Of a stretch of DNA of 46,682 nt, positions 1 through 46,682 are shown piece by piece. The position numbers and the translations under genes are program-made. This DNA comes from an uncultured Granulosicoccaceae bacterium. GTDB taxonomy: Bacteria; Pseudomonadota; Gammaproteobacteria; Granulosicoccales; Granulosicoccaceae. Position 1 is the stretch's first letter. Every line of letters starts with the position of its first letter. The DNA lies in assembly GCA_938003855.1 (NCBI GenBank), contig CALKXD010000244.1, forward strand, positions 1 through 46,682, in the 5' to 3' direction. The notes under the pieces are model-generated. The model was not told the origin of the DNA, ran no database searches, and was given only the letters and a program-made list of their open reading frames with translations.

Positions 1-130
1 ACCACTCAGGCACGCAATCTTTTGCCGACCATATGTAGTTACTTAAGAACAACTAAGCGCCTACATGTGGTAGGCAAAATCTCACGCACCTGAATGATCC
101 TCGCGACACCCTGTTTCTGGATAGGCACTA
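1..130 (-). repeat. Truncated copy of the 168-bp palindromic element (left contig end)
   Basis: Reverse complement of the element seen twice at the right end. Position 130 corresponds to 46354 and position 1 to 46483, with no gap in the alignment. The central 22 bases (loop) and both inner arms are present. The outer ~35 bases of one arm are cut off by the start of the window. One inner-arm change (accatatgtag against accacatgtag in the right-end copies) still allows a G-U type pair. No transposase is nearby, so it looks like a non-autonomous, MITE-like repeat. Confidence 0.85.
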
Positions 131-44253: not shown

Positions 44254-45723
44254 TTACTCGACCAGATCGGAATACTTCTGGAAGTCTTCCGGCAGTTCCA
44301 GTACGCCGTTGGATTCGACCACTTCGACCGTTTCCGGCGCGGGCTTACTGATCAATTGATTGACAAAAAATACCGTTAGCAATACGGCGGCAATACCGGC
44401 AACCAACCGTGTTCCGCGCACCGAATTCACTGCTTTCTGCTGATCATTTGCGGCGATGGTCTGTGTCGCAACCGGTGTGGAATTCCGGTTCGCTGCTGTG
44501 CGCTGCAACTTTGCTTTGATCTTTGCCACACCGGTTAGCAGACCGTTGGTGTTGCTGTTTGCTGCAGAGCGAAGCTGTGCTTCCTGCAGGGTGGTTCGTG
44601 CCATCGGGGTTCTGCAGCCGTTGCAGGTACTGTTGACAGCCGCGCGTGTGTTAGTCAGATTGGCTGCCTGTTGTGGGCGGTTCTCTGCCCTGGGGTCGAC
44701 GAATTGCTGGTTCGCAGCCGATTGTTCGATGGACAGTGGTTCACTGGCTGCGACCGGATCGGGCAGGGCACGTTCCAGACCGGTTGCCACCACGGTGACG
44801 CGTATTTCGTCTGACATGCTCGCATCAATCGAGGTGCCGATAACAACATTGGCTTCATCGGCGGTTATCTGATTCAGTATATCCCCTACCACCTGAAAGT
44901 CACCCATAGACAGATTTGCGCCACCGGTGATGTTGGCCAGTACGCCTCGTGCACCACGCAGATTGACTCCGTCGATAAGCGGGCTTTCGCTGGCCGCAAT
45001 GGCCGCATCGCGGGCACGAAACTCGCCGACGCCCCGCCCGGAGCTCATCATCGCTTCACCCATCTCACTCATCACTGCACGGACGTCGGCGAAATCGACG
45101 TTGATCAAGCCGGGGTTGGTGACCAGTTCGGCGATACTCTGTACCGCATTGGTTAACACATCGTTGGAAGCCGCAAACGCTTCCAGCAAAGTTGTGTTTG
45201 CACCAAGGTGTGTGAGTAGATTTTCGTTCGGTACAACAATCAGTGAGTCGACATAGTTGCGCAGATCGTTAATGCCCAACTCTGCCACCTGCATTCTTTT
45301 GTTGCCTTCAAAGTTGAAGGGCTTGGTGACAACGGCGACGGTCAGCACGCCAAGCTCTCTGGCGATCTGTGCAATCACAGGGATGGCTCCGGTGCCGGTA
45401 CCGCCGCCCATTCCAGCAGTCAGAAATAACATGTCTGCGTTGCTGATTGAGTTGGCGATTACCTCTCTGTCTTCCTCAGCGGCAAGTCTGCCGACGTGAG
45501 GATTAGTACCGGCGCCTAGACCGCGGGTGATGTCGCTGCCCAGCTGGATAACGTTGTCGGGTTTGAATCTGGAGAGTGCTTGTGCATCTGTGTTGACGCA
45601 CATGAAGTCGACGCCGCAGATGTCGGCGTTGATCATTTGCTCAACTGCGTTGCAGCCACCGCCACCAATACCAATAAGCTTTATTACCGCTGATTGATAG
45701 TGATTCAGGTCAGGTTGAATCAT
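44254..45723 (-). CDS. FtsZ paralogue with a C-terminal transmembrane anchor
   Basis: Tubulin-like GTPase. The frame is open to 45954, but FtsZ homology starts at ATG 45723 with a GGGAAC ribosome site; 489 residues. The core is nearly canonical: GIGGGGCNAV (18-27), NTDAQAL (44-50), the GTP loop MGGGTGTG (105-112), and the synergy loop NVDFADVR (208-215) with D210 and D213. From about 318 the protein departs from FtsZ: a low-complexity linker with CNGC at 367-370, a basic helix-prone stretch (400-415), a transmembrane segment at 438-457, and an acidic tail to residue 489. The conserved D-x-P-x-F-L-R end that binds FtsA and ZipA is missing. No ftsA, ftsQ or murein genes adjoin it. Charge pattern suggests the tail is periplasmic. 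Confidence 0.93.
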   Translation of the reverse strand: MIQPDLNHYQSAVIKLIGIGGGGCNAVEQMINADICGVDFMCVNTDAQALSRFKPDNVIQLGSDITRGLGAGTNPHVGRLAAEEDREVIANSISNADMLFLTAGMGGGTGTGAIPVIAQIARELGVLTVAVVTKPFNFEGNKRMQVAELGINDLRNYVDSLIVVPNENLLTHLGANTTLLEAFAASNDVLTNAVQSIAELVTNPGLINVDFADVRAVMSEMGEAMMSSGRGVGEFRARDAAIAASESPLIDGVNLRGARGVLANITGGANLSMGDFQVVGDILNQITADEANVVIGTSIDASMSDEIRVTVVATGLERALPDPVAASEPLSIEQSAANQQFVDPRAENRPQQAANLTNTRAAVNSTCNGCRTPMARTTLQEAQLRSAANSNTNGLLTGVAKIKAKLQRTAANRNSTPVATQTIAANDQQKAVNSVRGTRLVAGIAAVLLTVFFVNQLISKPAPETVEVVESNGVLELPEDFQKYSDLVE

Positions 45724-45996
45724 AGAGTTCCCTGCCACTTGCAATTGGGATGTATGTTTAATATCGGCCCTGCGGGAACCGGGTCGATCTCTGTTAAATT
45801 GCTGTAACGCATGTGGTGAATGGTGCAGTAAGCGCGCCATGTGATTGTGATGTAGCATACATAACTGTGGAGCTATGACAGTCATTGACCGGTAACCTGA
45901 TCGTCGCTGTCGCAGTACACTTCGCGGGCCTGCCCGGTCGTGTTCAATCATCAAATGCTGTGCCGTTCAGTAACCGCTGTTTAACATAACTAGAAG

Positions 45997-46344
45997 ATGC
46001 CGATGTCGAACAAGTTCCCGGAATGTCCGGAGTGCCAGTCAGCTTATGTCTATGTCGATGGCGAGATGCTGGTTTGTCCGGAATGTGCGCACGAGTGGTT
46101 TGAAAAACCCGCGGACAGCAGTGACGATACCGAGGTTGTCAGAGATGCCAATGGCAATCCGCTGCAGGACGGTGATACCGTAACGGTAATCAAGGATCTG
46201 AAGGTCAAGGGATCGTCGTCAGTGGTTAAGGTGGGTACGCGTGTCAAGAATATTCGACTCGTCGACGGTGATCATGATATCGACTGTAAAATAGACGGTA
46301 TCGGCGCGATGAAGCTTAAATCGCAGTTTGTGAAAAAGGCCTGA
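45997..46344 (+). CDS. yjdM: Zinc-ribbon protein PhnA/YjdM
   Basis: 115-residue homologue of E. coli YjdM (PhnA family), whose cellular role is unclear; the phosphonoacetate-hydrolase label belongs to another protein. A zinc ribbon is formed by C10, C13, C27 and C30 (CPECQ ... VCPECAHEW). The rest is the family's beta-barrel domain with [23 protein letters not shown] and [28 protein letters not shown] 45997 or 46003 may be used. It is divergent from the ftsZ-like gene with 273 bases between. Confidence 0.96.
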
Positions 46345-46350
46345 ACCTCT

Positions 46351-46518
46351 AATTAGTGCCTATCCAGAAACAGGGCGTCGCGAGGATCATTCAGGTGCGT
46401 GAGATTTTGCCTACCACATGTAGGCGCTTAGTTGTTCTTAAGTAACTACATGTGGTCGGTAAAAGATTGCGTGCCTGAGTGGTACGCAGTAGCGCTTGTT
46501 TCTAGATGGGCACTAATT
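46351..46518 (+). repeat. Palindromic 168-bp element, right-end copy 1
   Basis: The unit is 73 + 22 + 73 bases: two arms complementary to each other around the loop gcgcttagttgttcttaagtaa. By hand count 52 of 73 arm positions pair, perfectly at the outer 10 bases (AATTAGTGCC) and in the 11 bases next to the loop (accacatgtag). It carries no reading frame. The last four bases AATT are also the first four of copy 2. The features fit a fold-back, MITE-like element moved by a transposase in trans. Confidence 0.85.
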
Positions 46519-46682
46519 AGTGCCTATCCAGAAACAGGGTGTCGCGAGGATCATTCAGGTGGGTGAGATTCTGCCTACCACAGGTAGGCGCTTAGTTGTT
46601 CTTAAGTAACTACCCGTGGTCGGCAAAAGAGTGCGCGCCTGAGTGGCACGCAGTAGCGCTTGTTTCCGGATGGGCACCAATT
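46515..46682 (+). repeat. Palindromic 168-bp element, right-end copy 2
   Basis: Same length and layout as copy 1, starting in its AATT. It differs from copy 1 at about a dozen positions. One difference pair is compensatory: T-A at unit positions 69 and 100 in copy 1 is G-C here (46583 and 46614). The copy ends exactly at the window end. Confidence 0.85.

Follow-up and report, generated by a model that had tools for sequence, protein, structure and literature searches.

Repeat units at the two ends of the contig

The window analysed here is the whole of contig CALKXD010000244.1 (C244; 46,682 nucleotides), from a 6.84 Mb assembly in 312 contigs of an uncultured Granulosicoccaceae bacterium. Its right end holds a direct repeat with a period of 164 nt and 93% identity (46349–46512 versus 46513–46676), which in exact register comprises two complete 160-bp cores on the plus strand, identified from the repeat and from end-motif matches. 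The first (46355–46514) and the second (46519–46678) both begin with AGTGCC and end with GGCACT or, in the second unit, whose final base is altered, with GGCACC. The tetranucleotide AATT is present before (46351–46354), between (46515–46518) and after (46679–46682, the final four bases of the contig) the two units, which are arranged head to tail with one AATT common to both. The left end of the contig opens inside a third, oppositely oriented unit, truncated by the contig start to about 129 of its 160 bp (1–129, minus strand, end motif at 112–129). This unit is followed by AGCT (130–133) instead of AATT, and the arms 1–130 and 46354–46483 form an inverted repeat that is 98% complementary. A preliminary description of this DNA had proposed two full copies sharing an AATT junction and a truncated inverted copy at base 1, and both are confirmed at these positions. 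It had also given the unit as 168 bp: the repeat stands, but not this length, which corresponds to the 160-bp element flanked by an AATT at either side.

The element is preceded by a PhnA/YjdM-like gene of 115 amino acids (45997–46344, plus strand; Pfam YjdM, 1.6e-34, and zinc ribbon, 1.6e-14), a neighbour lying outside it. The stop codon of this gene is 6 bp before the first AATT, and the first unit starts 10 bp past the stop, AATT counted. Further upstream is an FtsZ-family gene on the minus strand (44254–45954), listed with 566 amino acids from a TTG; its tubulin domain begins only at residue 91, and the true start may be further inside. A search of the window for Rfam families at gathering score gave no matches, and no tRNA was found in it.

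The first unit folds back along its whole length. Its minimum free energy is −98.1 kcal/mol when folded as RNA (z −14.3) and −43.2 when folded as DNA (z −9.7), values that none of 200 dinucleotide shuffles reached in either case. The folding thus greatly exceeds chance expectation, in line with the earlier proposal that each unit can form one long hairpin.

Copy number and genomic distribution

A genome-wide count of copies, which the preliminary description had called for, was made with the end motif AGTGCCYATCCRGAAACA, allowing up to two mismatches. It gave 81 forward and 79 reverse matches in the window's own genome, and none on either strand for a reversed-pattern control. In this genome we gathered 77 copies or pieces, distributed over 58 contigs, and the copy number in this genome is about 75. 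The 168-bp query matches 15 of 57 genomes, namely the own genome, 12 of 13 others of the same genus, two of 22 others of the same family and none of the remaining 21. The possibility raised earlier that the element occurs only here is thus not borne out.

No copy among 136 lies inside an ORF, as judged with a home-made codon-usage gene caller, which also gave the following gene orientations. The neighbouring genes of 69 own-genome copies are convergent in 23 cases, co-directional in 18, divergent in three and undecided in 25; convergent (7) and divergent (8) pairs are about equally frequent among the 32 gene pairs of the window.

Several variants of the element were observed. Two own-genome copies of about 194 bp (L068:1117–1311 and L093:1580–1773) contain the middle of the element twice, with overlapping model ranges, and genome G001 has a subfamily of about 175 bp with a larger central loop (L120, L122–L125, L047 and L056). 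Full-length relatives, covering positions 1–160 of the model, are found in another order, in the Alteromonadaceae MAG DT_4 (L248:83–238 and L293:4697–4863; E-values 4e-15 and 7e-13), which suggests horizontal spread.

Since 21 of the 77 own-genome pieces are no more than 250 bp away from a contig end, and seven run into it, the presence of the element at both ends of the window is unsurprising. The earlier view that the same element brackets the contig is correct as to the arrangement, but not as to a biological unit: the bracketing reflects assembly breaks at a repeat, and the element explains part of the contig breaks seen in these marine genomes. That the end arrangement itself is an assembly artefact seems to us quite unlikely. 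The closeness of so many pieces to contig ends would favour it, as would contig C174, which terminates with an artificial-looking mirrored flank; against it, a tandem pair is located inside contig C185 (L002, 24759–25081 of 29640), with sequence continuing on both sides, and the two units of the window differ at about 7% of their positions, unlike a repeat-induced loop. In the last ~380 bp of C174 (L003), a flanking sequence is followed by two direct units and then by its own exact reverse complement, suggesting that the assembly artificially folded back here or that both orientations of the element are mixed at one site. This case was seen by eye and missed by our scan for mirrored flanks, which compares single-unit flanks and listed L112 only.

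Target site and its duplication

The 4-mers to the left and right are identical in 59 of the 116 complete copies for which both flanks are readable, and not identical in the other 57. Re-pairing the right-hand 4-mers at random gives an expectation of 27.0 ± 3.8 identical pairs, with a maximum of 41 in 2000 shuffles, and flank matches of this kind are seen at length 4 alone. Outward from the element edge, 92 non-tandem copies display the profile A (0.92), R (0.94), Y (0.95), T (0.85) and A (0.83), followed by a weak G and a decay to background by about +8. The element is therefore flanked by a 4-bp duplication of ARYT within the target T|ARYT|A; two variants of this tetranucleotide, AATT and AGCT, are palindromic. 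The AATT preference suspected in the preliminary description is one variant of this wider rule.

We considered whether AATT might be part of the element and rejected it, as AGCT, AATT, AGTT, GATT and CATT alternate at this position and match between the two sides. An extended inverted repeat in place of a duplication was suggested by the palindromes AATT and AGCT and by one copy (L023) flanked by AAGT and ACTT. Among the 18 copies that are informative on this point, 12 fit a direct and six an inverted repeat better (three and three for the six from the own genome, where L023 is the clearest exception), and this option was set aside given the 12 copies that favour a direct repeat and whole insertion sequences (IS) with AGTT on both sides.

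At 15 of 240 element sides a coding-like frame ends on a TAG composed of the target T and the AG of the element, and at five a frame ends at T-AR. For two genes that end at the element, most orthologues are a few residues longer. A tally of empty sites, with five stops among 15, is unreliable, some right-hand flanks having been out of register. Precise targeting of stop codons was considered and not retained, and we read these cases instead as tolerated insertion at gene ends. Comparison with relatives also provides an empty site: of eight orthologues of the gene that ends at the L008 copy, from eight other genomes, none carries the element at its end or within the next 57 bases. For the gene in L010, two of nine orthologue loci (in G013 and G002) have a copy slightly downstream, and that of G002 represents an independent event, because the opposite end of the element comes first.

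A probable partner insertion sequence with the same ends

A possible partner was sought through end motifs whose inner bases are unlike those of the element, which led to L169, where an element edge and AGCT are followed by a new interior with a transposase, and then through a protein search, which retrieved full elements. Two same-genus genomes carry an IS that combines the terminal repeats of the element with a transposase, one of 1680 bp flanked by AGTT on both sides (L196:147–1826) and one of 1666 bp flanked by AATT and AGTT (L195:531–2196). Further examples are L220:5745–7428 (AGCT/AGCT) and L238:1596–3272 (AGTT/AGTT). Among the matches listed, the named genomes with the same ends around an ISNCY transposase include Vreelandella rituensis (AGCT/AGCT) and Desulfosarcina widdelii (AGTT/AGTT), and plasmid records add a Marinobacter IS (L355, AGCT/AGCT) and ISRm17 of Sinorhizobium meliloti (L356). 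The partner ISs are about 1.67 kb long, with identical 4-bp flanks in four of them, and the autonomous elements L195, L196, L220, L238 and L355 match the short element at the ends alone. An IS with matching termini had been predicted from the window, and it indeed exists within the genus, in two genomes, as well as in Vreelandella, Desulfosarcina, Marinobacter and Sinorhizobium, but the terminus proposed for it, AATTAGTGCC, was wrong, the actual IS end being AGTGCC.

The transposases of L196 and L195 exceed the cut-off of the NCBIfam model transpos_ISNCY_1 (396.7 and 389.2 bits, cut-off 325), that of Pfam DDE_Tnp_1 (56.1 and 45.4 bits, cut-off 23) and also that of Pfam DUF772. The transposase of L169, truncated by the contig, scores 307.9 bits, below the transpos_ISNCY_1 cut-off of 325. 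Neither a protein search nor the family model gave a match to an ISNCY transposase in the window's own genome, and three partial matches considered as candidate IS ends (L054, L076 and L087) have no transposase among their adjoining ORFs.

Both ends of the element are AGTGCCYATCCAGAAACA. It is short and non-coding, has terminal inverted repeats and a flanking duplication, and occurs in dispersed copies alongside an autonomous element with the same ends, the features by which a type II MITE is recognised. The suggestion that it is a MITE, made earlier from the window, is upheld by the high copy number, the lack of coding capacity, the identical ends, the 4-bp duplication, a site that is empty in relatives and the IS with the same ends. 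Very probably, then, this is a non-autonomous type II MITE, mobilised at T|ARYT|A by an ISNCY/ISDol1-like DDE transposase. Such a transposase, of the transpos_ISNCY_1 family, would recognise AGTGCCYATCCAGAAACA at both ends of the MITE, and insertion at T|ARYT|A would duplicate ARYT. As the own genome gave no ISNCY transposase match, the partner IS and the MITE are matched across species. We infer mobilisation of the MITE in trans by an ISNCY transposase, whose source has either disappeared from the window's genome or is missing from its assembly.

A different reading would make the element a REP/BIME or REPIN-type repeat, with a RAYT of the Y1 HUH type as its transposase, and not a MITE with the terminal inverted repeats of a DDE IS. 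In favour of this, the element is short, palindromic and intergenic, and copies are often found near the 3' ends of genes or between convergent ones, the latter in 23 of the 69 own-genome copies. REP/RAYT insertions, however, are not known to leave a target duplication such as the 4-bp one found here at a fixed target, and the ends are common to DDE insertion sequences, which makes this origin extremely unlikely.

Tandem arrays

For a MITE with AG...CT ends, each insertion would remake the target T-ARYT-AG at both of its edges, and further insertions at these remade edges, whether of the MITE or of the IS, would produce head-to-tail arrays whose units are separated by a single ARYT. Since each insertion remakes T|ARYT|A at its own edges, the two earlier suggestions about AATT, a target preference and insertion next to an existing copy, are one and the same fact, the second following from the first, and the sharing of one ARYT by tandem units has the same explanation.

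The window has 19 TARYTA sites, which scales to about 2,800 in the genome, and some 75 copies would supply about 150 of these. Target choice alone would thus be expected to yield a few tandem insertions, roughly estimated at about two. Five tandem pairs were found in the own genome (L001–L005), one of them with a partial second unit. Junctions of other compositions were also observed: in L128 of G002, two units in opposite orientation, only 62% alike, meet at one AGCT, and in a related genome an IS adjoins a MITE edge, with one ARYT in common, in L169 (MITE-AGCT-IS) and in L196 (MITE-AGTT-IS-AGTT).

Tandem units could in principle have arisen by local duplication, through slippage or unequal recombination, and not by repeated insertion. 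Duplication of the element together with one target copy would also leave a shared ARYT, and the two units of L002 resemble one another to the same degree as they do their closest copies elsewhere (0.964 each). The paired units of the own genome are, nevertheless, only 0.899–0.964 identical, and in its complete pairs (four of four), as well as in L098 of G012, one unit or both resemble some copy located elsewhere as much as, or more than, the adjoining unit. Against local duplication stand also the inverted, dissimilar units of L128 with their common AGCT, and the IS and MITE that have an ARYT in common in L169 and L196; L002 perhaps apart, we consider it very unlikely. Repeated insertion at rebuilt targets gives a simple rule for head-to-tail arrays, in which an insertion with AG...CT ends restores the target at its left and right edges.

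In the plasmid of Marinobacter sp. M3C (L355, 613–620), two IS ends meet across one AGCT, an arrangement in which the IS stacks head to tail.

Hairpin folding and a possible role of the palindrome

The copies might be preserved because they are transcribed into hairpins with an RNA function, as terminators, 3'-end stabilisers or small RNAs. The low energy of the RNA fold and the position of copies near gene 3' ends would agree with this, as would the consensus stem of the own genome, with nine G-T versus two A-C mismatches, and the excess of G-T over A-C in 115 of 116 copies, a count that rests on non-independent copies. New stem variants, however, favour G-T only in G012 (34 versus 5 cells; 15 versus 4 distinct); they are even in the own genome (85 G-T versus 80 A-C cells, 28 versus 33 distinct, in 60 copies), and amount to 12 versus 13 in G013 and 13 versus 9 in G001. 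The first RNAalifold stem gave only 21 pairs and favours G-T by construction, so that the final tests used a score without credit for G-T together with the counts of new variants, which have no consistent sign. Furthermore, the three terminator-like matches within 46300–46682 are short internal stems, and no such match in this region spans the whole hairpin with a T-run behind it. An RNA function thus appears unlikely, and we conclude that the own-genome copies are decaying, with no visible sign that an RNA stem is under selection.

Distant bacteria carry other short elements with these ends, which form a comparative set for a possible role of hairpin interiors in MITE transposition. For 17 elements, that of the window included and several of them mutually related, the interiors were folded after removal of 20 bp from each end. 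Ten surpass every one of 200 shuffles in stability, and seven fall short of that level, including three that are not unusual (21, 29 and 66 shuffles as low). The inner hairpins of four elements with ISNCY ends (L228, L233, L234 and L267) look like widespread palindromic repeats (GTCATTGCGAGCG... and TCATTCCGGCGAATGCCGG...). As a speculative proposal, and one that we regard as rather improbable, ISDol1-group transposases in Gammaproteobacteria and Desulfobacterota might repeatedly recruit unrelated long palindromes into the space between the same two ends, with a self-complementary interior, as a cruciform or single-strand hairpin, helping to join the ends. If so, the fold-back architecture would be a selected feature of transposition and not a by-product.

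Comparison with known systems

In the literature covered on MITEs, on ISNCY/ISDol1 and on the Granulosicoccaceae, which mostly does not extend to subscription papers, we found no description of the element. The MITE family is new, from a poorly described IS group for which a target (T|ARYT|A), the length of the duplication and a non-autonomous partner are now described; elements of this kind are known.

The closest named relative is ISRm17 of S. meliloti, placed in the ISDol1 group of ISNCY (PMC10194956). It has the same terminal repeat, AGTGCCC[A/G]TCCATAAAC, with ends 1666 bp apart in L356, and its transposase is about 43% identical to that of L196. Unlike the MITE, ISRm17 carries a transposase, and the one copy examined is flanked by GCCT on the left and AGCC on the right, with no clean 4-bp duplication.

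The IS1202 family, formerly under ISNCY, also has some members with duplications of 3–5 bp (PMC10132070). We considered membership of the partner IS in this family and rejected it, as the outer ends of the Acinetobacter members described there are TGT...ACA, whereas those of the partner are AGT...ACT. The partner transposase matches transpos_ISNCY_1 and DDE_Tnp_1.

Prokaryotic type II MITEs such as Chunjie and QMITE2, as reviewed in PMC10969869, are alike in being shorter than 500 bp, with terminal inverted repeats and flanking direct repeats, and they too are present in tens of copies that are mostly intergenic and hairpin-forming. The MITE of the window differs from them in its ends and its IS group, and in its well-defined target of 4 bp, T|ARYT|A, which it rebuilds at its own edges.
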